Shown piece after piece: positions 7,764-58,508 of a stretch of DNA of 64,000 nt; the first letter of the stretch is position 1; each line of letters opens with the position of its first letter. Location: assembly GCA_003327425.1 (NCBI GenBank), contig QOQW01000022.1, forward strand, positions 1-64,000, given 5' to 3'. Made by a program: the position numbers and the translations under genes. The notes beneath the pieces are model-generated. The model ran no database searches and was not told the DNA's origin. It saw nothing but the letters and a program-made list of their open reading frames with translations. The DNA comes from Candidatus Ozemibacter sibiricus (GTDB lineage: Bacteria; Muiribacteriota; Ozemobacteria; Ozemobacterales; Ozemobacteraceae).

Positions 7764-8012
7764 ATGGGAAATACCATGCTCATTCGGCTCAACCCTGACA
7801 TCAAAACCAAGCTATCCCGTCTGGCCAGGCTCGAGGGGAAGGCGGCAAGTCAAATCATTCGAGAGTTGATTGCCGCGTACATCAAAGAAAGAGACATTTC
7901 TTCCTACATCGATTCCCTCTGGACTCGCATAGGCGAGGAAATCTCAGCCTCTGGATACGGAGAAAAAGACATTGCGAAGGCTATTAAAGAAGTCCGTTCC
8001 AAAAAGAAATGA
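7764..8012 (+). CDS. Ribbon-helix-helix antitoxin
   Basis: 82-residue protein whose N-terminus (MLIRLNPDIKTKLSRLARLE, then ASQIIRELIAAYIKER) is a typical ribbon-helix-helix DNA-binding fold; the C-terminal ~35 residues, ending in basic KEVRSKKK, should wrap and neutralise the partner toxin. GGAGG lies 5 bases before the ATG. It overlaps the PIN toxin gene by 4 bases. The DNA is visibly more AT-rich than its surroundings, suggesting horizontal acquisition. It is expected to repress its own promoter through the 22-bp palindrome. Confidence 0.85.
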   Translation: MGNTMLIRLNPDIKTKLSRLARLEGKAASQIIRELIAAYIKERDISSYIDSLWTRIGEEISASGYGEKDIAKAIKEVRSKKK

Positions 8013-8419
8013 TTGTTGTAATTGATACCAATGTCTTTGTCTCTTCGTTTTTCGGTGGAAATCCGAAAAAGGTAATTGATTTGTGGAAGACAGGTCAGGT
8101 AAAGCTGGCATTAACCAATGAGATACTTGAGGAATATATCAAGGTTCTTGAAAGGATGGGGTTGAAAGATCAAGAAACGAAACGTGAGCTATTAACCCTC
8201 TTCAGGGGCTCATATTCCATCGTTTTTTCCGCGAAGACCCAAAAAATCCGAATGGTGGAAGATCCCGACGATGACAAATTCCTCGAATGCGCCATAGCTC
8301 TGAACGCCGATTTCATTGTGTCAGGCGACCGCCATCTCCTGGAATTGGGCGATTACATGGGCATCAAGATTCTCAATCCCAGAGATTTTTTGCACGTCAT
8401 CGAATCGAGGCGGGTCTAA
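8009..8419 (+). CDS. PIN-domain ribonuclease toxin
   Basis: 136-residue PIN-fold protein of the COG1569-like toxin family. Acidic catalytic residues are visible at Asp6 (VVIDTNVF), Glu38 or nearby (LTNEILEEY), Asp87-89 (DPDDDKFLECA) and Asp107 (SGDRHLLEL), giving the metal-binding set of an RNA-cleaving toxin. ATGA overlap with the antitoxin means coupled translation. Like its partner it is AT-richer than flanking genes. The RNA target is unknown; family members act as endoribonucleases, often on tRNA or mRNA. Confidence 0.88.
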   Translation: MIVVIDTNVFVSSFFGGNPKKVIDLWKTGQVKLALTNEILEEYIKVLERMGLKDQETKRELLTLFRGSYSIVFSAKTQKIRMVEDPDDDKFLECAIALNADFIVSGDRHLLELGDYMGIKILNPRDFLHVIESRRV

Positions 8420-8710: not shown

Positions 8711-9376
8711 TCAAGGCTGGGCGGAGAGGATCTCGACGTTCTTGACCACGGGCAGGCCGTTGGAATCGGTTCCGACCACGCCGCGCAGGCGCAGGATCGT
8801 GCCTTTGGGATACAGCTTGGGCAGCCGTTCGAGGGTGATGGCGCCGGTGGGGTCGGCCAGCAGATACAGGCGATTCCCGCGCGGGCCATACCCCTTGGCC
8901 AGGACGCCGAGCAAGCCGACGGTGCGGCCTTGCATGCCCAGCGGGTCGAACAGGATCTGCGACACCGAGACCATCCGTTCGATGGTGGGGTGCATCGGGG
9001 TGACCTGGGAGACCTGCAGATAGGGCTGGCCGTTGGTCGCGAGCATGACCTGGCCGAGGACGGTCACCGGGCGGCCGAGGGCGGCGGGGTCCTCGGGACG
9101 CAAGTCCTCGGGATACTGGCCGGTACAATAGATGGAAGGACCGCCGGGGGCCTGGATGACCCAATCGGAGCGAGTGACGGGCGGGCTGCCGGGAGCGTTC
9201 CGCCATCCTTGGAAGGTGGCCTGGACGGACACCAGTTTACCGACGAAGGCGCTGGGGTTGGCCACGATGTCGGCCAGCGGGGTGAAGATGCCAGCGGTCG
9301 GGTTGGCGGACCCCTCCGCCGGGACGATACACCACAGAGCCACCAGGACCGCCAGAGCCAGGACTCGAGGTTTCAT
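8711..9376 (-). CDS. Secreted protein with two OB-like modules, unknown
   Basis: 221 residues with a signal peptide (MKPRVLALAVLVALWCIVPAEGSA) and then two similar beta-rich segments: VGKLVSVQATFQGWRNA...VTVLGQVM and MQGRTVGLLGVLAKGY...TILRLRGVVG. Both have the small-residue/beta-strand spacing of OB-fold tRNA-anti-like or YdeI-type periplasmic domains; this is inference from pattern only. The start overlaps the end of the DUF1232 gene by 4 bases, so it is the third gene of a minus-strand operon headed by the DUF1844 gene. No catalytic motif is visible. Confidence 0.7.
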   Translation of the reverse strand: MKPRVLALAVLVALWCIVPAEGSANPTAGIFTPLADIVANPSAFVGKLVSVQATFQGWRNAPGSPPVTRSDWVIQAPGGPSIYCTGQYPEDLRPEDPAALGRPVTVLGQVMLATNGQPYLQVSQVTPMHPTIERMVSVSQILFDPLGMQGRTVGLLGVLAKGYGPRGNRLYLLADPTGAITLERLPKLYPKGTILRLRGVVGTDSNGLPVVKNVEILSAQP

Positions 9377-9810
9377 GGTTCTTCCCTCCCAAGATGCGAA
9401 TAGCGTTCGGAGATCTGGTGACAGAGATCGGCGAGTCGGTCGACCGCTTCGCGCCCTTTCTGTCGGATGCGATCGATCGAGGGGTCGACCCGAGTGAACA
9501 GCATGGCCTTGTGCTTCTCGACGAAGGCCAGCTCCTGCTCGAGTTCGGCGCGGCTGAGCACGGGGTTGGCCTGGCCGGCCTCGGTCAGATGCGGGGTTAC
9601 GGCCAGGAACAGCATCAGATCATCGAGGTAGCCGATGTTGGGAATCTGGTCAGGGACGAGGTCATCCTCGTCGAGGAGATAGACGAAGGTGCCGGCCAGC
9701 AGTTCTCGATGGTCGGGGCGTTGGGCGGTGGCGGCGTAGGCGGTGAAGCGATCGATCAAGCGGCGCAGCGAGGCTTCGATCTGGCGTTGCAGTCGGCTTT
9801 TGTCAGGCAT
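9373..9810 (-). CDS. DUF1232 (YkvA-like) protein
   Basis: 145 residues. The segment TFVYLLDEDDLVPDQIPNIGYLDDLMLFL is the DUF1232 signature (a short hydrophobic hairpin with D-x-x-P-D-x-I-P-x-x-G-Y-x-D-D). N- and C-terminal parts are charged and helical. ATG 9810 (MPDKSRLQRQ) is chosen; an upstream in-frame start would add 36 Pro-rich residues overlapping the preceding gene's end. Function of the family is unknown. It sits between DUF1844 and the secreted protein gene. Confidence 0.75.
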   Translation of the reverse strand: MPDKSRLQRQIEASLRRLIDRFTAYAATAQRPDHRELLAGTFVYLLDEDDLVPDQIPNIGYLDDLMLFLAVTPHLTEAGQANPVLSRAELEQELAFVEKHKAMLFTRVDPSIDRIRQKGREAVDRLADLCHQISERYSHLGREEP

Positions 9811-9830: not shown

Positions 9831-10322
9831 TCAGGGAGTCGGGGTCAGCTTGGCGAAATTCAGGCGCAGGTTGGTCAACTGGGCCTGCAGCTCCTGCTCG
9901 AGTTCGGGGTGGCCCCATTTTCCCTGCATGTGGCCGGCGATCAGGCTGACCAGGTCGATGAGGCGTCGCGCCTCGGCGGGATCGCGCTCGACGCGGCCAG
10001 TGGCCGGATTGCCGACCAGCCCCAGGGCGATCCAGGCCTTCTGGATCATCAAGCCCAGGAAGAAATTGGTGATCTCGAAGGAATTCAGCTCGAGGAGGGA
10101 CAACGGTTGCTCATCATCGGGACCGAACGGCGCGTCGCGGTCGGCTCCCATGCCGGCCGCGCCCCCGGCCCGCGAATGGGGCGGCGGGCTGGACGGCGAT
10201 GAGCCGGCGCGGGACTCGGCGGCCGGTGTCGACGGTGAACGTGGCTCGGTTGCTTCTGGGCGCTCGCCGTCGTCGTGGGTGGCCCGTTTATCGGAGATCT
10301 TGAACCCCTCGTTGGTTCCCAT
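9831..10322 (-). CDS. DUF1844 protein
   Basis: 163 residues. The first ~70 are disordered and rich in Pro, Ser, Ala and charged residues; residues ~75-160 (ITNFFLGLMIQKAWIALGLV, then AEARRLIDLVSLIAGHMQGK and LTNLRLNF) match the DUF1844 pattern of two amphipathic helices with an acidic link (P-x-T-G-x-V-E-x-D). Members occur in Thermodesulfobacteria, Planctomycetes and other diderms, function unknown. It heads a minus-strand operon and is divergent from the Ycf46-like ATPase gene, with back-to-back promoters. Confidence 0.78.
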   Translation of the reverse strand: MGTNEGFKISDKRATHDDGERPEATEPRSPSTPAAESRAGSSPSSPPPHSRAGGAAGMGADRDAPFGPDDEQPLSLLELNSFEITNFFLGLMIQKAWIALGLVGNPATGRVERDPAEARRLIDLVSLIAGHMQGKWGHPELEQELQAQLTNLRLNFAKLTPTP

Positions 10323-10353
10323 GCTGTCCCCTTTCCGGTGTGGTGGTGCCTAC

Positions 10354-10382
10354 TCTATAGCACATCCCAGGCCGAGTGACAA
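10354..10382 (-). promoter_or_regulatory. Promoter of the DUF1844 operon
   Basis: On the minus strand TTGTCA (10382-10377), 17-bp spacer, TATAGA (10359-10354), about 32 bp before the DUF1844 start codon. Close to the sigma-70 consensus. Confidence 0.6.
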
Positions 10383-10427
10383 CGGGGACTCTCCCCTGAG
10401 CGAAACGGCGCCCAGTGGCTTTGCCTT

Positions 10428-10456
10428 TTGACATCGTGGTTGGTGGTTGCTAGAAT
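10428..10456 (+). promoter_or_regulatory. Promoter of the Ycf46-like cluster
   Basis: TTGACA (10428-10433), 17-bp spacer, TAGAAT (10451-10456), ending 44 bp before the ATPase ATG at 10501. Perfect -35 element and five of six -10 bases match the consensus. Confidence 0.7.
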
Positions 10457-10500
10457 GAGCCCCGTGCGCTGTGCGCCAGTCGTGCCGAATCGAGGTGTCC

Positions 10501-12243
10501 ATGAGCGACCAGACTCCCCGTCCTCCCGGTTCCCCGTCCTTTCGCGCCCCTGTCTCCGGTCCGCCGTCGGCTCCCCGCCCCGCTTCGACCGGAGCGGCCA
10601 CCCCCGCGTCCCCGTCGACCCCGCCGGTCGCGTCGGCCGCGCCGACCGCGCCAACGGCGGGTGAGGCGAAGCCACGGCCTGGTCCGACCAGCTCATTCCT
10701 GCATGAGATCGATGTCCTGGTGCGGGCCAAATACCCCATCCTCTACCTGGTGACACACGAAGAGGAGCGGGCCGAGAAGATCATCTGCGATGTCGCTCGA
10801 CTCCAGAACAAGCGGTGCTACTCGTGGTCCTACACGCGCGGCCTGCTCGAAGCCGGCACCGACCTGCAGATGAAGAAGAAGATCGCGGAGGCGACCACCG
10901 ATCCCTTCGAGGCGATGAACGCGGTCATCGACAACGTCGAGAATGCCATCTTCATCTTCAAGGATCTCCACCCGTTCCTGAAAGATCCGCGCATCGTCCG
11001 GCGGCTGCGCGAACTGGCCGCCTTCCTGCGCGATAGCCCCCGCACGTTGTTCCTGGTGTCGCCGAGCCTGGTGATTCCGTGCGAACTCGAAAAAGAGATC
11101 ACCGTGATCGAATTCGGCTTCCCCACCGCCGACGAGATCAACCAGAAGATCGACGAGATGATCGAGCTGGTGCGGAACAACCCGCGGGTGAAGATCAACC
11201 TGCCCCAGCCCGATCGCGAGCGGCTGATCAAGGCCTGTTCCGGGCTGACCCTGCGCGAGATCGAGAATGTGCTGTCGAAGACGCTGATCTCGCAGCTCAA
11301 GCTCGATGGCGAGGATTTCCGCGCCATCCTGGAAGAGAAAGAGCAGATCATCCGCAAGAGCGGCATCCTCGAGTTCTACGCCGCCACCGAGGCGTTCAAG
11401 AATGTCGGCGGTCTCGAGAACCTCAAGGCCTGGCTCGAAAAACGTCGGCAGGCCTTCTCCGAGAAGGCCCGGGCCTTCGGCTGCACGCCGCCCAAGGGCA
11501 TCATGCTGCTGGGGGTGCAGGGATGCGGCAAGAGTCTGGTGGCCAAGGCGGTCAGCAGCCTCTGGAACGTGCCGCTGCTGCGGCTCGATATGGGGCGCAT
11601 CTTCTCGAGCCTGGTCGGATCGAGCGAAGAGAACGTGCGCCGGGCGATCCGCACGGCCGAATCGGTGGCGCCGGCCATCCTGTGGGTGGACGAAGTCGAG
11701 AAGGCGTTCGCCGGGGTGCAATCGTCGGGGGCGGCCGACAGCGGCGTCACCAGCCGCGTCTTCGGCACCTTCCTGACCTGGCTGCAGGAGAAGACGTCGC
11801 CGGTGTTCGTCATCGCCACCTCGAACAAGATCCGGGATCTGCCGCCCGAGCTGTTCCGCAAGGGACGATTCGACGACATCTTCTTCGTCGATCTGCCCTT
11901 GCCGGCCGAACGGAAGGCCATCTTCGCCATTCATCTGCAGAAGAAGGGGCGCGATCCGCAGACCTTCGATCTCGAGCGGCTGGCCAGCGCCAGCGAAGGC
12001 TATTCGGGGGCCGAGATCGAAGAGGCGATCGGGTCGGCCATCTACGAGGCGTTCGCCCTCGACCAGCCCCTGTCGACCGACCTGATCCTCAAAGCCCTGG
12101 GCGAGACCTACCCCTTGTCGAAGACGATGAAGGAAGAGATCGACGATCTGCGGCGGTGGGCTTCCGAGCGGGCCCGCCCGGCCTCGGCGCTGCCGATGGC
12201 CCAGGAACCCTTCAAGACCCACCGGGCTCTCGAAATCGGCTGA
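10501..12243 (+). CDS. Ycf46-like AAA+ ATPase
   Basis: 580 residues. A Pro/Ala-rich leader (~60 residues) precedes an N-terminal domain with [23 protein letters not shown], the opening typical of Ycf46-type proteins (a degenerate RecA/AAA-like domain). This is followed by a full AAA+ module: Walker A GVQGCGKS (Gly338-Ser345, Lys344), Walker [10 protein letters not shown], sensor IATSNK and arginine-finger region FRKGRFDD, with a C-terminal helical lid. ATG 10501 has GAGG 5 bases upstream. In cyanobacteria and plastids Ycf46 is linked to stress and carbon acquisition, with no defined biochemistry. Here it heads an operon with DUF1257, TPR and DUF2997 proteins, which are likely partners. Confidence 0.88.
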
Positions 12244-12272
12244 GCCCGGGCACCACACAACGGAGGAGCGAG

Positions 12273-12734
12273 ATGTCGGCATTCGTCGTATTGGTCCCGG
12301 CGGTCATGGGCGGGCCCGCCTTCGCGGCGGCCGTAGCGGTCGCGGGAGCGGCCATGGGACTGAAACTGATCCAGGGGGCCTCGGCGGTCGAAGAGAGCTG
12401 GCAGCAGGAGGCCGAGGCGACCTCGGTCGAGGTCGATCTGCCGAAGAACTACGCGCTGGCCGAGACGGTCGATGAAGGCGAAAGCACGGTCCTCGAGGGG
12501 AACGGGTTCCGGGTCACCTTCGCCAAGACCGGACGCGGCGATGTGCAGATGCGGGTCGAGGGGCAGGGCAAGTCGGAGCGGGAACTCGAGAAGCTGGGGC
12601 GCGACCTGTTGAACCGGGTCGCCCAGCAGTACGCCTACCAGAAGTTGACCAAAGAACTCAAGAAACGCGGGTTCAACCTGGTCCAGGAGCAGGTGGAGGC
12701 CGACCAGACCATCCGCCTGACCGTGCGGCGCTGA
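12273..12734 (+). CDS. DUF1257 (Ycf35-like) protein
   Basis: 153 residues. The N-terminus is hydrophobic and Ala-rich (AFVVLVPAVMGGPAFAAAVAVAGAAMGL), and could insert in or associate with a membrane. The C-terminal half, with AQQYAYQKLTKELKKRGFNLVQEQVEADQTIRLTVRR, is the DUF1257/Ycf35 core, where family members have the YA-x-x-x-V-x-x-x-L-x-x-x-G-F pattern. GGAGGAG precedes the ATG. DUF1257, DUF2997 and Ycf46-type ATPases are co-conserved in cyanobacteria, and the same grouping is seen here. Function unknown. Confidence 0.75.
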   Translation: MSAFVVLVPAVMGGPAFAAAVAVAGAAMGLKLIQGASAVEESWQQEAEATSVEVDLPKNYALAETVDEGESTVLEGNGFRVTFAKTGRGDVQMRVEGQGKSERELEKLGRDLLNRVAQQYAYQKLTKELKKRGFNLVQEQVEADQTIRLTVRR

Positions 12735-12753
12735 CGTTGCGCGGGAGGCGCCC

Positions 12754-13569
12754 GTGAGCCGCTTCCAGTGGCTGGAATTCGAGAACCCCACGCCCCCCGG
12801 GGGGGAAGGCGACATCCCCGGGCGGCCCCCGGGCGGGGAAGGGGACGACCCGACCGATCCGCAGTACATCTTGCGGCTGGCCGACGAGGCCTATCGCCAA
12901 ATGGACTGGGAAAAGGCGCTGCGGTTGTATTCCCGCGCCCTGGGCCTCGACCACACGCTCGAAGCGGCCTGGGTGGGGCAGTTGCGCTGCCTGCTCGACC
13001 TGCAGGAGAATCCCGAGGCGTTGACCTGGGCCATCAAAGCCCACAAGACCTTCGGCAAGAGTCCCGATGTCCAGGCGGCGCGCGCTCTGGCGCTGGCGCG
13101 CAACGGCCAGCTGCAGGAGGCGCTGGCCTTCTCCGACGGCAGCATGAAGGTGGATCGCGTGGGGTGGTTCCCCTGGGTGGTGCGGGGCGAGATCCTAGCC
13201 CGTACCGGCGCCACCAGCGCCGATTTCTGCATGGGCAAGGCGCGCGAGATCGCGCCCAACGACTGGCTCGTCGCCCTCAAGGTGGCGCAGGGGTACAAAT
13301 ATGCTGGGTTGTACGAAAAAGCGGTACCTGTCTACAAGAAGGTGCTGGCCGCCCAGTCCGATCTGGCGGAAGCCTGGTACGAACTGGGGGAGTGTCACCT
13401 GGCGATGGGGCTGACCGGCGAGGCGGTCGAGGCCTTCGCTCGCGCCGTGAAACTGGTGCCTCAGCGCAAGAAGTATTCCGAAGCCTACGCTCGCTTGCTG
13501 GGCTCGGGTCCGATCGAACACCTCCTCGGATGGCTCCGGGGACTGTGGAAAGGAGTTACCGGCCGATGA
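12754..13569 (+). CDS. TPR-repeat protein of the Ycf46 cluster
   Basis: 271 residues. A Gly/Pro-rich N-terminal stretch (PTPPGGEGDIPGRPPGGEGD) leads into about six helical TPR units (for example ADEAYRQMDWEKALRLYSRAL, KVAQGYKYAGLYEKAVPVYK and LGECHLAMGLTGEAVEAFARA). It is soluble, with no signal peptide. GTG start with GGGAGG 5 bases upstream. The stop overlaps the next ATG (ATGA), so it is translationally coupled to the DUF2997 gene. TPR units bind peptides or proteins, so it is a plausible adaptor for the ATPase. Confidence 0.8.
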   Translation: MSRFQWLEFENPTPPGGEGDIPGRPPGGEGDDPTDPQYILRLADEAYRQMDWEKALRLYSRALGLDHTLEAAWVGQLRCLLDLQENPEALTWAIKAHKTFGKSPDVQAARALALARNGQLQEALAFSDGSMKVDRVGWFPWVVRGEILARTGATSADFCMGKAREIAPNDWLVALKVAQGYKYAGLYEKAVPVYKKVLAAQSDLAEAWYELGECHLAMGLTGEAVEAFARAVKLVPQRKKYSEAYARLLGSGPIEHLLGWLRGLWKGVTGR

Positions 13570-13769
13570 CCAAGAAGGAACAGATCTCGGTGACCATCAA
13601 GCCCGACGGACAGGTGGAAGTGCATCTCGAGGGCTTTGGCAGGAAATGCGACGAGTACGTCAAGATCCTCAAGGACATTCTGAATGCCCAGATCAAAGAC
13701 CAGAAGTTCACCAGCGAGTACTACACCTCGACCGTCGAGACCGAAACCCATACCCGCCTCAAGGGTTGA
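13566..13769 (+). CDS. DUF2997 protein
   Basis: 67-residue small protein: ISVTIKPDGQVEVHLEGFGRKC, then YVKILKDILNAQIKDQKFTSEYY, is the DUF2997 pattern (a beta hairpin with I-x-x-D-G-x-V-x-V, a conserved Cys, a helix and a Y-Y ending). It is soluble and has no signal. ATGA overlap with the upstream TPR gene. DUF2997 proteins are encoded beside DUF1257 and Ycf46-like genes in cyanobacteria, supporting a common system. The reading frame stops at GGT TGA, directly before a second small open frame shifted by +1. Confidence 0.78.
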   Translation: MTKKEQISVTIKPDGQVEVHLEGFGRKCDEYVKILKDILNAQIKDQKFTSEYYTSTVETETHTRLKG

Positions 13770-14013
13770 AGCCCAGATCCTGATCGAGCCAGACGGCACG
13801 ATCGTCGTCACCGATCTGTACGAAGAGCTGGCCGAGGTGCTCGACACGGTGCGAGCCGCCGTCGCCCCGGCCGGCCAGCTGGCGGTCGAGACCCCGAGCG
13901 ATGGTCGGCGCCCGGCGATGATGGCGCACGCCGTTCCGGCCTTTCATCAACCGACCGGCCCGGGCGCCCCGGTCGTTGGCGAGATCGCCGCACGAGCGTC
14001 GAGGAAGGAGTAG
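13684..14013 (+). CDS. Small ORF after DUF2997, start uncertain
   Basis: 109 residues if started at ATG 13684, but the first ~27 codons only mirror the overlapping DUF2997 gene. Protein-like sequence begins at VEAQILIEPDGTIVVTDLYEELAEVLDTV, exactly where DUF2997 stops. No ATG, GTG or TTG lies at that junction, so either the overlap is real (an AGGA lies ~9 bases before 13684), a rare start such as CTG is used, or ribosomes shift +1 at GGTTGA. ILIEPDGTIVV resembles the first strands of DUF2997 itself. Product and function unknown. Confidence 0.42.
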   Translation: MPRSKTRSSPASTTPRPSRPKPIPASRVEAQILIEPDGTIVVTDLYEELAEVLDTVRAAVAPAGQLAVETPSDGRRPAMMAHAVPAFHQPTGPGAPVVGEIAARASRKE

Positions 14014-14017
14014 GACC

Positions 14018-15076
14018 ATGTTGGAAACCATGACCATGGATCGATTGCTGAGCATCTGCCTGGAGCGGCAAGCGTCCGATCTCCACCTGACGGTCGGCTT
14101 GCCGCCAGCCGCGCGCATCCATGGCGAGATCGTCACCCTGCCGTTCGACAATCTCGATGGCGAGACCTGCCAGCATCTGGTGTACTCCATCCTCAACGCA
14201 GATCAGATCGCCAAATTCGAGGAAGAGTGGGAACTCGATTTCTCGCTGTCGCGACCAGGTCTCGGTCGGTTCCGGGTGAACGTCTTCAAGGAGAAAGGCT
14301 TCGTCGAGGCATCGATCCGCATCGTCGCCCCTCAGATCAAAAGCCTGGCCGAACTGGGCCTGCCGGAGGCGGCGGTCGAGCTGTCGCGCCGGCCCAATGG
14401 GCTGGTGCTGGTGACGGGGCCGACCGGCGTCGGCAAGACCACCACCTTCAACTCGTTGATCGACCAGATCAACCGTGAGCGGCGCTGTCGGGTGCTGACC
14501 ATCGAAGATCCGATCGAATACATCCATAAGCACAAGAAATCGATCATTCTGCAGCGCGAGGTGCACTGCGACACCCGTTCCTTCGCCACCGCCCTGCGGC
14601 ATGTCCTGCGCCAGGATCCCGACATCATCGGCATCGGGGAGATGCGCGATCTCGAGACCATCTCGACCGCCATCACGGCGGCCGAAACCGGTCACCTCGT
14701 CATCGCCACGCTGCATACCAGCGATGCCCAGCAGACCATCGACCGCATCGTCGACGTCTTCCCGCCGCATCAGCAGGAGCAGATCCGCATCCAGCTGGCC
14801 AACTCGCTGCAGGGCATCATTTCCCAGCAGCTGCTGCCCACCGTCGAGAAGAACGGCCGGGTGCTGGCGTTCGAACTGCTGATCGCCACGCCGGCCATCC
14901 GGCGGTTGATCCGTGAGAACAAGATCACGCAGCTCGACACCTTCATCCAGACGGGCAGCGAGTTCGGCATGGTCTCGATGGACCGGTCGCTGAAGACCCT
15001 CTACCAGCAAGGCCGTATTTCCTACGATGTGGCCATGTCCAAGGTCAAGAATCCCCAGGCCTTCAAGGAATTGTGA
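14018..15076 (+). CDS. pilT: PilT twitching motility ATPase
   Basis: 352-residue secretion-type hexameric ATPase that retracts type IV pili by depolymerising pilin at the inner membrane. N-terminal PAS-like half (SDLHLTVGLPPAARIHG), then Walker A GPTGVGKTT (Lys140), Asp box ITIEDPIEYIH, Walker B with GEMRDLET, His box ATLHT, and the PilT-specific AIRRLIRE motif near residue 295 (AIRNLIRE in most homologues) needed for retraction. ATG preceded by AAGGAG. No pilB, pilC or pilin gene is nearby; instead it lies downstream of the Ycf46-like cluster and ahead of a metallo-beta-lactamase-fold gene, overlapping it. Confidence 0.93.
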   Translation: MLETMTMDRLLSICLERQASDLHLTVGLPPAARIHGEIVTLPFDNLDGETCQHLVYSILNADQIAKFEEEWELDFSLSRPGLGRFRVNVFKEKGFVEASIRIVAPQIKSLAELGLPEAAVELSRRPNGLVLVTGPTGVGKTTTFNSLIDQINRERRCRVLTIEDPIEYIHKHKKSIILQREVHCDTRSFATALRHVLRQDPDIIGIGEMRDLETISTAITAAETGHLVIATLHTSDAQQTIDRIVDVFPPHQQEQIRIQLANSLQGIISQQLLPTVEKNGRVLAFELLIATPAIRRLIRENKITQLDTFIQTGSEFGMVSMDRSLKTLYQQGRISYDVAMSKVKNPQAFKEL

Positions 15077-30630: not shown

Positions 30631-33117
30631 TCAGATGACCTTGTAGCTGAACTCCGTCAGGAACTGGCGGATTTCCGGGGAGGGGTCGAGGCGGAGGCTG
30701 TTGAGCAAGGGTTTGAGCGCTTCGGGTTTGATCTTGGCCATGGCCTTCAAGGCGTTGAGGCGGACGAGGGCCTGGGGATCGCGCACGAAGGGGACGATCA
30801 GGGTCAGGTGGGCCTCCTGCTTGATTTCGCCCAGCACCCACAAGGCGCTGGCCTTCATCAGAGGATCAGGATGATTGAGCATCTTCTGCAGGACCGGCAG
30901 CACGTTGACCTTGCCGATCTGCCAGACGCCCAGCGCCGCGTTGGCACGGATCCGGTTGTTGGGGTCTTCCAGGAAGGGGAGGAGGATCTGGGTGGCGCGA
31001 GCGTCCCCGAACCCGGAGATGGCTTCGATGGTGTTGGCGCGTACGCGCTCGTCAGGGTCATTGAAGAATTCGATCAACTGCGTCATCAGGGTGCGGTCGC
31101 CGATGACGCCGAGGGTCTTGACCACGGCGGCGCGGACCTTGCGCGAGGGATCGCGCATGGCGGCGAGCAGGGCATCACGGCCCTTGCCGCCGACCTGCAG
31201 GTTTTCCATGATCATGGCCGCCCGCAGGCGGGAATCGGGATCGAGGGATTTCAGCTCGGCGATCAACTCGTCGATGAAGCTGGCATCCAGCTTCAGGATC
31301 GCCGAGGCCGCCAGTTTGCGGACCTCGGGCGGCAGCGTTTTGAAATTGGCGATGTAGCGCTGCTTGGTGATCTTGGCGATTTCTTTCAGGACGTACGTGC
31401 GAATCTCGTCGACCGGGCTGTTGACCAGACGGGTCAGCAGGGCGGTGAAGCGGTCGGGCGGCAGGGCTTCCCGCAGGCTGCGCACCGCCAGCAGGGCCAC
31501 TTCGGGATCGGGATCGCCGGTGGCATCTTCGAGCAGACGGGCGATTTTCGGATGCCGGATCTTGAGGGCCGTCTGCAGCGCCTTCAACCGGACCGGCGGG
31601 GAGAGATCCTTCAGCGCTTTCTCCAGGACCCCTGGCAGCATGTCGCCCCCGATATCGAGCAGGATGTCGAGGAGGGCCATGCGGATGTCGGGGTCGGGGT
31701 CTTCCAGGAACTCGACGAGCCGGATGCCCTTCAAGCGTGCTTCCAGATTCCGTTTGAAGACCTCCCGATCGCCGGCCGGGATCGCCTGCAAGAGCTTGAA
31801 CAGCAGGCGCAGGTAGTCGGGAGAGGGAGTTCGGCCGAGACCGCTGAGCAGCAGGGCGGCGACCGAGGGGTCCTGTTTGACGGCATCCTGGAGGAGGGCG
31901 AACTGGTCGTCGAACGGCCAGGTGCTGATGCCGGACATGGCCTCTCCGAACTGGTCGGTCAGCAAGCGGGTGAAGACCGGGCGGACCATGGAATGGTCGG
32001 CCTCGGCCATGGCGAAGAACAGGCGGATGAGTTCCAGGCTGCCATTTCGATAGGTGCCCTGGGCGATCAGGGTGACGATGCGTTGTCGCCAGTCCTCCAG
32101 GAGTTTGGTGAGGAGCGGTTTCTTGTCTTCGTTGGGATCGGCCAGGCGGCCGAGGGTGGAGCGGTGGATCGACAGCAGGGCGTCGAAGACGAGGGCGCGC
32201 ACCCGCGCCACCGGGTCGTCGAGGAGGTCCAGGCAGGGGAGGAACAGGAAGGGATCGAGCTTGCGGGTCAGGCGGGCCAGGAACTGGATGCGCAGCTCGG
32301 GGCGCGACAGGCCCGCCGCCAGCCGGAACAGATCCTCCTTGTATTCCATGGTGCGCGAGAACAGCACTTCATCGATCAATTGGATCACCGCCTTGCCGGG
32401 ATTGCCCTGCAGGAGTCGTTGGACGGGAGGGATCAGCTCATCGAGCGAGTATTCGAGCAGGGCTTCCCGGATGCGGGGCAGGAGCGAGGCGCCGGCGGTC
32501 TCGGCGAGTTCGAGGTAGAGCGGGATGAACTCGGGCCGGTGGAACTTCACCATGTTGTGGAAATGGAACTTGCGCACCTCGGGGTCGGGGATCGCGAAGT
32601 TCTCGACCATCCGCGCGAAGAGATCCATGTCTTCGAGGAGCGAGGAAATCTCGAAATAGAGCGGGGAGGTATGGTCGGCGGGAACGGCCCGGAGGAGGGC
32701 ACCCAGCGCCTCGTCGCCATACAGACGGATGATGGCTTCCCGGACTTCCTTGCGGATGGTGAGGTCGGCGTCGGCCAGCAGCGGCACGATGGCATCGAGG
32801 CTGCTCTGCGAGGGCAGGCGGTTGAGGGCGCGCAGGGCGGCTAGGCGGATCTCGTTGTCCTCGTCCTGGAGGAGGTTCTTGAGCAGAGGGATGGCTTCTT
32901 CGAGACCGCGCTTGCCGACCAGGTCGAGGAGGGCGAACAGGGTTTCCCGCGGGGTGTCGCCCAGGGTCCGCAGGCGCGCCAGGATCTCGGCGTCGGCCTG
33001 GGGGTCGTCGAGATCGGCCAGCGTCGCGAAGGCCTGGCGCCGAGTCTCGGGGTCTGGGCTCTCCAGGTCGGACAGCAGCTCGGCGGGGGGACGGGCGGGG
33101 CGGAACGGCCAGATCAT
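30631..33117 (-). CDS. HEAT-repeat protein 2 of operon
   Basis: 828 residues, built almost entirely of HEAT/PBS-lyase repeats, for example DLESPDPETRRQAFATLADL, LLQDEDNEIRLAALRALNRL, LEDPNNRIRANAALGVWQIG and FVRDPQALVRLNALKAMAKI. The C-terminal repeats are the most regular (D-P-x-x-x-V-R-x-x-A), forming a long superhelix. No signal peptide or membrane span, so probably cytoplasmic or peripheral. ATG overlaps the TGA of the upstream HEAT gene by 4 bases. Regular repeats next to a membrane protein suggest a scaffold; nothing more can be said from sequence. Confidence 0.82.
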   Translation of the reverse strand: MIWPFRPARPPAELLSDLESPDPETRRQAFATLADLDDPQADAEILARLRTLGDTPRETLFALLDLVGKRGLEEAIPLLKNLLQDEDNEIRLAALRALNRLPSQSSLDAIVPLLADADLTIRKEVREAIIRLYGDEALGALLRAVPADHTSPLYFEISSLLEDMDLFARMVENFAIPDPEVRKFHFHNMVKFHRPEFIPLYLELAETAGASLLPRIREALLEYSLDELIPPVQRLLQGNPGKAVIQLIDEVLFSRTMEYKEDLFRLAAGLSRPELRIQFLARLTRKLDPFLFLPCLDLLDDPVARVRALVFDALLSIHRSTLGRLADPNEDKKPLLTKLLEDWRQRIVTLIAQGTYRNGSLELIRLFFAMAEADHSMVRPVFTRLLTDQFGEAMSGISTWPFDDQFALLQDAVKQDPSVAALLLSGLGRTPSPDYLRLLFKLLQAIPAGDREVFKRNLEARLKGIRLVEFLEDPDPDIRMALLDILLDIGGDMLPGVLEKALKDLSPPVRLKALQTALKIRHPKIARLLEDATGDPDPEVALLAVRSLREALPPDRFTALLTRLVNSPVDEIRTYVLKEIAKITKQRYIANFKTLPPEVRKLAASAILKLDASFIDELIAELKSLDPDSRLRAAMIMENLQVGGKGRDALLAAMRDPSRKVRAAVVKTLGVIGDRTLMTQLIEFFNDPDERVRANTIEAISGFGDARATQILLPFLEDPNNRIRANAALGVWQIGKVNVLPVLQKMLNHPDPLMKASALWVLGEIKQEAHLTLIVPFVRDPQALVRLNALKAMAKIKPEALKPLLNSLRLDPSPEIRQFLTEFSYKVI

Positions 33118-35588
33118 GAGGCGGCCTTCGGTTTGGGCGGGGCGGTCAGGATCTCGGAGACCGCTTTGCGTACGCCCTCGTCAGGATCGAAGCGCAGCGG
33201 GCGGATGTACGGCGCCACGACGACCGGTTCGGCGAGCTTCCCCATGGCTCGCACGACGTTGCGGCGGACATCGGGATCGGGATCGCGCAGGCAACCGACC
33301 AGCACGGGAAAGAATCTGGCATCGCGCAGTTCCCCGAGGGCGTAGGCCGCCGACGCGCGCATCCATTTGTCGGGATTGCGGAGCATGTCGATGACAGCGT
33401 CGTAGATCTGGTAGTAGCCCAGGCGCCACAGGGTCATGATGGTGTTGGCCCGCACCCGATTGTTCTTGTCATACAGGCAGGGCAGGATGGCCTCGGCCAG
33501 GGTGAGATCGCCCACGTTGGCCATGGCTTCGACCGCATTGGCGCGGACCCGGTCATCCTGGTCCTTGAGGAACTCGACCAGCATGTTGGCCACCGACGGC
33601 CCGCCGATCTTGCCCAGGCCCATGATGACGACGGCACGCACGTGGGGGTCGGGGTCCTGGATGGCGACGATCAGGTTGGTCTTCAATTCCGGCGGAATGT
33701 GGTCGCACAGGACTTCCAGGATGCGGGCGGACAGGACGCGGGTGCGCTGGTCGGGGGCGGACAGGTCGCGGGTGACATCCTCCAGGAAGGTCGGATCCAT
33801 TTTGATGAGCGACGTGCCGATCGCGTATTTGGCCTCGGGGGTCAGCTTGTCGAACCCGGCGATGAACTTCCGGCGCGTCACGTAGGCGATGGCTTTGTGG
33901 GCCTCTTCCCGCAGCTTGGGATCCTTGCTGGTGAGAAGCTTGCTGAAGTTGCCCAGGAGCTTGGGGTGGTCGCGTTCCTTCAGCAGCTCGATCGCATGAA
34001 GGATGATCGACTGCTCGGTGTCTTTCAGGAACTCCATGAGGGCTTCAGTGCCTTCGGGGGTCTGGAAATGCTTCAGTTTGAGCAGGTTGAGGATGGCTTC
34101 GCGCACCGAATAGTCGGGATCGCGCATTTTGCTGACCAGGATCTGGAGCGCATTGGCCGAACCGCTCTCGCCCAGGATCTGCAAGATGCGGGTGCGGAGG
34201 GCGGGATCCTGGTGGTAGAGCACTTCCTCGACGAACCGCTTCAGGCGCGGATCCATCATCAGGTTGATGACCTCCGCCTGGATGGGGGCCGGCACCTTCA
34301 TGAAGTGCTTGAGGAGAAGGGAATTGAGGGTGTCGATGATGTAGTTCTCGGTAGGGTTCGACAGCAGGAGCAGCGCGGTCCGGCCGGTGGCCAGCTCCTT
34401 GTAGCAGACGGCATCGATCAGCAGGGTTTTGCGCCAGGCGAGTTCCTGGCCCTTCAAGAAGCTGAGCAGGTAGTTCTCGTTGTATTTGTGGATCTTGGGC
34501 AGGTTGCGCAAAATGATGTCGGGTTGATGGCGGCCCAGGCGAAGGAGGCATTCCGACAGGATCTTGCTGGCCTGCATGTAGCGGTCGTTGAGGCACTCCT
34601 CCAGGGGTTTGGTGAAGAAATTGATGCGTTCGAGGGTCTTGGGCGAATTCCGGGTGGCTTCGTCCATCGCATCCAGTTCATCGGCGACGCGTTTGATGAT
34701 GGCCTGGATGGTATTCTGGACCACCGGCGGGATCGACTTGAATTTGTCGAGCAGGTAGGGGAACAGGTAGGGGTAGGAGATCGGGTCGGAGAGCTGTTCG
34801 ATCAGCTTGAGGACCGTCAGGCGGAACCCCTCGCTCTTTCGCCCGAGGTCCTGGAAGATCTGCTTGAAGAAGGCTTCCCCGTGATACTGGCAGCACTTGA
34901 AGACCTGGTACCACATCAAGGGGTCGATGTTGGGCAGATTCTTCATGCACAGGTCGAGGAAGGCCGGATCCTTGATCTTTTCGATGTGCTTCCCGAACTC
35001 GACCTGGATGATCCGCTTTTCTTCCTTCTTGCTCTCGACCACTTCCTCTTTGAGGATATCCATGAAGATGGGGTAGGTGGCCGGGTTCTGCAGCAGCACG
35101 ATCTCTTCGAGGTAGAGGATCTTCTCCTTGGTCGTGTACTCGCTCCATTTCTTGAGCAGCCGGTCGAGAATGCCGGAATGGACGATGGCGTGCTGCAGGG
35201 TATTGCGAATGGAGGTGTCCGAGGTGGAGCAGAGGACTTCGGTGACCGGGCGCAGTCGCTCTTCGTTGAGGCTCTGCAGGATCTCCTTGAAGGTTTCGCG
35301 CAGCACCGAGTCGGGGTAGGACAGCAGTTTCAGGATGCTGCGCAGATCTTCGTTGGAGAGCGCATCGTGGCGGGCCGCGAAAATCTCGAGGATCTTCAGC
35401 CGGGTCTCCAGGGTGTTCTGGCCCAGGTTCCCGGCCTCGTCGAAATGGCGGCACAGGAACTCCACCAGATCGTGGTTGAGATTGGCGATGAACTCCTCTT
35501 TCGCCCCCGCCGCGACCTTCTTGTCGGGAGAGATCAGGCGGGCGAACGCTTCATCGGGATCGGTGATCTTGCGTGTGAACCAACCCAT
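33114..35588 (-). CDS. HEAT-repeat protein 1 of operon
   Basis: 824 residues starting MGWFTRKITDPDEAFARLISPD. The N-terminal ~480 residues are irregular helical repeats (VLRETFKEILQSLNEERLRP and ILYLEEIVLLQNPATYPIFM), while ~480-824 are regular HEAT/PBS repeats (VSKMRDPDYSVREAILNLL, FLKDQDDRVRANAVEAMANV and CLRDPDPDVRRNVVRAMGKL). It shares architecture and near-identical length with the next gene, implying duplication. First gene of the operon; no Shine-Dalgarno is visible at the ATG. No enzymatic motif or signal. Confidence 0.82.
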   Translation of the reverse strand: MGWFTRKITDPDEAFARLISPDKKVAAGAKEEFIANLNHDLVEFLCRHFDEAGNLGQNTLETRLKILEIFAARHDALSNEDLRSILKLLSYPDSVLRETFKEILQSLNEERLRPVTEVLCSTSDTSIRNTLQHAIVHSGILDRLLKKWSEYTTKEKILYLEEIVLLQNPATYPIFMDILKEEVVESKKEEKRIIQVEFGKHIEKIKDPAFLDLCMKNLPNIDPLMWYQVFKCCQYHGEAFFKQIFQDLGRKSEGFRLTVLKLIEQLSDPISYPYLFPYLLDKFKSIPPVVQNTIQAIIKRVADELDAMDEATRNSPKTLERINFFTKPLEECLNDRYMQASKILSECLLRLGRHQPDIILRNLPKIHKYNENYLLSFLKGQELAWRKTLLIDAVCYKELATGRTALLLLSNPTENYIIDTLNSLLLKHFMKVPAPIQAEVINLMMDPRLKRFVEEVLYHQDPALRTRILQILGESGSANALQILVSKMRDPDYSVREAILNLLKLKHFQTPEGTEALMEFLKDTEQSIILHAIELLKERDHPKLLGNFSKLLTSKDPKLREEAHKAIAYVTRRKFIAGFDKLTPEAKYAIGTSLIKMDPTFLEDVTRDLSAPDQRTRVLSARILEVLCDHIPPELKTNLIVAIQDPDPHVRAVVIMGLGKIGGPSVANMLVEFLKDQDDRVRANAVEAMANVGDLTLAEAILPCLYDKNNRVRANTIMTLWRLGYYQIYDAVIDMLRNPDKWMRASAAYALGELRDARFFPVLVGCLRDPDPDVRRNVVRAMGKLAEPVVVAPYIRPLRFDPDEGVRKAVSEILTAPPKPKAAS

Positions 35589-52400: not shown

Positions 52401-58508
<6,108 letters not shown>

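Follow-up and report, generated by a model that had tools for sequence, protein, structure and literature searches.

A candidate tag-addressed AAA+ remodelling operon with a DUF1257-DUF2997 pair in "Candidatus Ozemibacter sibiricus"

The operon described here may encode a protein-remodelling machine, in which a Ycf46-type AAA+ ATPase is directed to its partners by a short N-terminal tag and is served by a DUF1257-DUF2997 cofactor unit. We give this reading about an even chance. Its basis is conserved gene linkage, co-occurrence across genomes, a gene fusion, enrichment of the tag, and intact ATPase motifs. The operon lies in the window, the 64,000-nucleotide stretch of contig QOQW01000022.1 that was analysed. 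An earlier note, made from the sequence alone, had proposed an undescribed ATP-driven remodelling module, and this is still the best reading: the linkage is conserved beyond the source genome and the ATPase motifs are intact.

Organization of the locus

The features of the locus are as follows.

9376 to 9810, minus strand: DUF1232 protein, divergent neighbour (PF06803, E=1.3e-6)
9831 to 10322, minus strand: DUF1844 protein, divergent neighbour (PF08899, E=1.2e-9)
10428 to 10456, plus strand: sigma-70-like promoter, TTGACA-17-TAGAAT with extended TG (consensus scan, 11/12 matches)
10501 to 12243, plus strand: Ycf46-type AAA+ ATPase, 580 aa (Pfam PF00004, E=3.5e-27)
12273 to 12734, plus strand: DUF1257 protein (C-terminal half of Ycf35) with a hydrophobic N-terminal segment (PF06868, E=2.8e-9)
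12754 to 13569, plus strand: TPR protein (Pfam) with the N-terminal tag VSRFQWLEF
12760 to 12780, plus strand: codons of the RFQWLEF tag within the TPR gene
13566 to 13769, plus strand: DUF2997 protein, 67 aa (PF11211, E=3.8e-11)
13765 to 14013, plus strand: small ORF with a block conserved in three congeneric genomes
14018 to 15076, plus strand: PilT/PilU-family ATPase, sixth member of the conserved operon (TIGR01420, 455.7 bits, cut-off 319.1)

Pfam searches place all the families named in the earlier note (AAA, DUF1257, TPR, DUF2997, DUF1844, and DUF1232) where it had put them. The gaps between the AAA, DUF1257, TPR, and DUF2997 genes are operon-like (29, 19, and -4 nt) and Shine-Dalgarno sequences are present, in agreement with the single operon that it had assigned. 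Of the two consensus promoters that it listed, the plus-strand one stands as the sole pass of the consensus scan (1 found versus 0.5 expected), whereas the divergent one, TTGTCA-17-TATAGA, was read by eye, is weaker, and does not pass. The cluster extends past the end at 14013 that had been proposed, the PilT-family ATPase being part of the conserved set as well. Downstream of the PilT gene, closely spaced on the same strand, are genes for an RNase Z-like hydrolase and an NtrC-type regulator.

The flanking genes that had been named alongside the set are local additions. DUF1844 and DUF1232 genes adjoin the module only in the source genus and in one further Ozemobacteraceae genome, and they are not conserved with it outside this family. 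The small ORF, for which no clear start codon was found after the DUF2997 stop, is common to only three congeneric genomes, which share the block VEAQILIEPDGTIVVTDLYEEL; it occupies the place of an S26-like gene that is missing from the operon in the window. Given this narrow distribution, neither the divergent pair nor the genus-restricted ORF belongs to the system.

Rfam, tRNA, and tandem-repeat scans found nothing. Elsewhere in the window, an 82-aa protein and, after it, one with a PIN_3 domain (E=1e-21) are likely a VapBC-type toxin-antitoxin pair adjoining the module (7764 to 8419, plus strand). An RNA polymerase beta-prime gene (52401 to 58508, plus strand) encodes 2,035 aa, far above the usual length; weak lipoyl/M23-like matches at residues ~1510 to 1690 suggest a large barrel-type insertion. 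On the minus strand, the stretch from 30634 to 35588 encodes two neighbouring HEAT-repeat proteins (828 and 824 aa).

Conservation and co-occurrence

The survey covered 382 genomes, along with homologue loci from many phyla in which genes were called by script. AAA, DUF1257, and DUF2997 are found together in loci from Riflebacteria, Planctomycetota, Omnitrophota, Bdellovibrionota, Desulfobacterota, and Brocadia. DUF2997 is present in 29 genomes, DUF1257 in 23, and the AAA in 87. DUF2997 occurs in 22 of the 23 genomes with DUF1257 (Fisher p=1.7e-20 outside the organism's own phylum), and the AAA occurs in 27 of the 29 genomes with DUF2997 versus 60 of the 353 others (p=3.6e-17; p=8e-12 outside the phylum); these p values treat genomes as independent, and most of the genomes are from different families. 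The two small genes are adjacent in 18 of 20 loci found by searching with DUF2997 only. A full-length AAA is encoded in 14 of the 16 genomes checked, often apart from the DUF pair, and members that bear the whole trio are widely scattered in a 190-row AAA tree. Among Desulfobacterales and Brocadia, one locus each has a DUF3150-type protein after DUF2997.

Neighbourhood analysis of DUF1257 and DUF2997 in non-cyanobacteria, as the earlier note had suggested, thus shows the grouping to recur across phyla, plasmids, and phages. A module peculiar to the source genome was therefore rejected, the three-gene core being found in all of these settings. Because the module is widespread in non-photosynthetic bacteria, plasmids, and phages, the non-photosynthetic setting that had been singled out is not odd.

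The Ycf46-type ATPase

The ATPase consists of a disordered N-terminus, a degenerate first domain that has no P-loop, and a CDC48-D2-like AAA domain with intact motifs. It matches the phage family PHROG 8638 (of unknown function) over its full length (E=8.7e-157), and homology to this Ycf46/phage family is confirmed over both halves of the protein. Comparison of 17 diverse members shows no variation in the Walker A residues, the sensor-1 Asn, or the Arg finger and very little in the Walker B Asp-Glu.

Sequence searches give p97/Cdc48/VAT as the closest solved structures, and the type II AAA+ proteins CDC48/p97/VAT and NVL are the best structural relatives by this measure. In contrast to CDC48/p97 proper, which has two ATP-binding AAA domains, the Ycf46-type protein has a single P-loop, its first domain is only weakly AAA-like (hhalign probability 11%), the p97 N-domain is absent, and the cofactors are unrelated. 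Pore-loop 1 reads SLVG in most members, its Leu replacing the aromatic residue of AAA proteins that thread their substrates. This replacement makes full unfolding uncertain, and judging by the SLVG loop, the enzyme may act by remodelling or disassembly instead of threading.

A second Ycf46 AAA paralogue, 40% identical, is encoded in the source genome (G000:C50:51829-53361) and has homologues in most Ozemobacteraceae. These proteins come without DUF1257 or DUF2997, and several adjoin a 66- to 68-aa protein.

The DUF1257-DUF2997 pair

The DUF1257 protein of the window matches PF06868 at 37.6 bits (cut-off 22.2), but by its C-terminal 41 residues only (profile positions 63 to 103). The canonical N-terminal half, which starts with MSHF, is replaced by a hydrophobic segment. 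The DUF2997 protein passes the PF11211 gathering score and has the near-invariant Gly and Cys. The predicted models reach only modest pLDDT values (69.6 for DUF1257 and 76.5 for DUF2997); neither has a fold match in Foldseek at E<0.001, a PDB sequence search with either protein found nothing, and profile comparison detects no homology between the two. Scanning viral sequences with the DUF2997 alignment led nowhere, the conservation being too low. In one viral ORF (L184:4179-4757), DUF1257 and DUF2997 are fused (E=6e-12 and 1.5e-15, respectively), which is direct evidence that the pair works as a unit.

DUF2997 is predicted to fold as beta-beta-alpha, with Cys28 at the N-terminus of the helix. 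The retention of this cysteine in nearly all DUF2997 sequences is also what a redox or radical module would lead one to expect: DUF2997 would serve as a small carrier or substrate, an iron-sulfur partner would reduce or modify its cysteine, DUF1257 would dock DUF2997, and the AAA would remodel the complex for turnover. Radical SAM proteins of the NrdG/PflA type are indeed encoded close to the AAA in Treponema, Bacillus, Paenibacillus, and Paenarthrobacter plasmids, in planctomycetes they immediately precede it, and cyanobacterial loci encode a ferredoxin-type protein 3' of DUF1257, as in cluster g (PMC4284462). However, NrdG on those plasmids could merely serve an anaerobic reductase, and no iron-sulfur protein adjoins the module in the window, on the IncC plasmid, or in the inspected phage loci, so that we regard this scheme as unlikely. 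In the preferred reading, an AAA+ remodelling machine, DUF1257 and DUF2997 would form one cofactor unit on the ATPase ring, with DUF2997 presenting a functional cysteine.

The six-gene operon and its membrane proteins

The conserved operon consists of six genes, which encode the AAA, DUF1257, TPR, DUF2997, an S26-like membrane protein, and PilT. Riflebacteria share it with two planctomycete orders and no fewer than five other families, and its gene order varies, with TPR, DUF2997, S26, and PilT swapping places. In the S26-like member, a membrane protein with a zinc ribbon, Pfam recognizes a domain resembling signal peptidase S26. As the catalytic SMxPT motif of S26 is not conserved in its sequence, this protein probably lacks peptidase activity.

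PilT is retained with the module across several phyla despite the shuffled order, and together with the membrane-bound S26-like protein and the hydrophobic N-terminus of DUF1257, this would fit an accessory of type IV pili, in which the operon of this lineage tunes a membrane PilT motor and the AAA remodels the pilus machinery. Yet cyanobacteria, plasmids, and phages have the core but no PilT beside it, and the source genome encodes ten PilT-family genes above the cut-off. The PilT linkage suggests a pilus role for the source lineage only, and as an account of the module we find it distinctly improbable. In the preferred reading, the remodelling machine of this lineage would be wired to a membrane system, through the hydrophobic N-terminus of DUF1257 and, in the conserved operon, the S26-like protein and the PilT motor.

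Plasmids and phages

The AAA is found on 744 plasmid records, of which 598 are conjugative, and on 94 phage records. Annotated DUF1257 and DUF2997 genes adjoin it on the inspected plasmids of Paenibacillus, Bacillus, Planktothrix, and Pseudanabaena, as well as in Rhizobium phage RHph_I4. On the IncC plasmid, profile searches assign to DUF1257 the unnamed gene that separates AAA from DUF2997, and they find the DUF1257-DUF2997 pair in elements of Vibrio, Aeromonas, Rhodobacter, and Agrobacterium. An AAA gene was called on 76 viral contigs, 26 of which have both small genes near it, and the two proteins also match PHROGs 20456 and 23133. Most of the plasmid and phage versions have no tagged partner; the inspected phage loci, unlike the window, encode neither an N-terminally tagged partner nor PilT. 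With its core on plasmids and in phages, the module looks like a general remodelling machine and not like a part of photosynthesis.

In L211 and similar jumbo-phage contigs, the AAA gene immediately precedes helicase and primase genes. In a large viral clade (L214, L225, L238, L252, L258, and similar contigs), it is followed by proteins of ~265 and ~113 aa, the former with RF[AS]FL[DE]-like motifs near its C terminus.

The large number of conjugative plasmids and the proximity of phage copies to DnaB-like helicase and primase genes might suggest a protein that helps to replicate or maintain mobile elements (a remodeller of helicases or partition complexes) and that was captured by chromosomes. 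This is very unlikely, as the chromosomal operons have no replication genes and are kept vertically within Riflebacteria. A role in defence against phages or as a toxin-antitoxin system, as in IetAS/SgiAT, is hardly credible and was rejected: the weak PADLOC matches to IetA are limited to the AAA domain (E=3e-23), the remaining matches are generic AAA ones, no subtilisin-like protease partner is found among the neighbours scanned, and phages themselves carry the module.

The N-terminal tag on partner proteins

The TPR proteins of the operon start with R-F-x-[WR]-L-E-[FVILM]. The broader class, R-F-x-W/F/Y/R-L-E, is common to unrelated proteins encoded next to the AAA, namely TPR proteins, NHL propellers (in Armatimonadota, directly 3' of the AAA), SNF2-like helicases (L150 and L303), and a zinc-ribbon protein (L042). 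It is found in 26 of 3,045 distinct N-termini versus a mean of 0.8 for permuted motifs, in a control that counts related TPR proteins more than once; the permuted motif with the next highest count (18) is probably picking up those very strings again. A wide DNA-pattern search of the 382 genomes, made without reference to the AAA, led to a tagged TPR protein directly 3' of a Ycf46 AAA (genome G178), although its raw counts were no higher than the control. Among the plausible matches in the source genome, only the TPR protein carries the tag. In the 190-row tree, adjacent tagged partners are confined to one AAA subclade of 46 rows, apart from a single distant row whose long branch is unreliable.

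C-terminal forms of the tag are seen in some phages, and we leave them as a hint: over 56 whole phage and plasmid records, they show no excess (22 matches versus ~24 in the control). The viral contigs L207 and L223 encode several proteins with a C-terminal RF-x-x-[LI]E. In L150, L160, and L303, an SNF2-like helicase and a Cys-rich protein of ~560 aa lie beside DUF1257-DUF2997 or directly after the AAA.

These observations allow a bolder proposal, which we make tentatively and at somewhat less than an even chance. RFx[W/F/Y/R]LE would be a portable N-terminal address by which one clade of Ycf46 AAA+ proteins engages TPR, NHL, SNF2, and zinc-ribbon partners, with DUF1257-DUF2997, and its reactive cysteine, as the cofactor. 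The result would be a new tag-addressed system whose core is common to bacteria, plasmids, phages, and algal plastids.

Proposed mechanism and relation to known systems

We infer a mechanism in which the Ycf46-type ATPase assembles into a CDC48-like ring, with a first AAA-like domain that is degenerate and a second that hydrolyses ATP. The TPR protein would be an adaptor or a client, which would dock through its N-terminal RFQWLEF tag.

AAA+ proteases and unfoldases, such as ClpXP with SspB, combine an ATPase, an adaptor, and a short terminal recognition tag (degron). The proposed machine would follow the same logic, provided that the tag does dock; in contrast to ClpXP-SspB, no protease partner was found here, and the tag is carried by proteins of the adjacent genes in the operon.

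Ycf46 and Ycf35 (DUF1257) of cyanobacteria and plastids, including the cyanobacterial cluster g, duf2997-ycf35-fed7 (PMC4284462), belong to the same protein families as the operon in the window. There, too, DUF2997 is beside DUF1257, and three genomes (L311, L314, and L317, judged cyanobacterial by their ferredoxin locus) have a second DUF1257 gene immediately 3' of the Ycf46 AAA. Compared with these sets, the window unites all the genes, along with those for a tagged TPR protein and PilT, in a single operon that has no ferredoxin, and its DUF1257 has no counterpart of the usual N-terminal half of Ycf35. In the open-access (as opposed to subscription) literature on DUF2997 and DUF1257, no description of the module outside cyanobacteria and plastids was found.

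Ycf46 and Ycf35 have been plastid and cyanobacterial genes of unknown role. Together with DUF2997, they form a conserved set that is common on plasmids and in phages and whose bacterial partners carry the shared tag. What was an orphan gene set becomes a system that can be tested directly.
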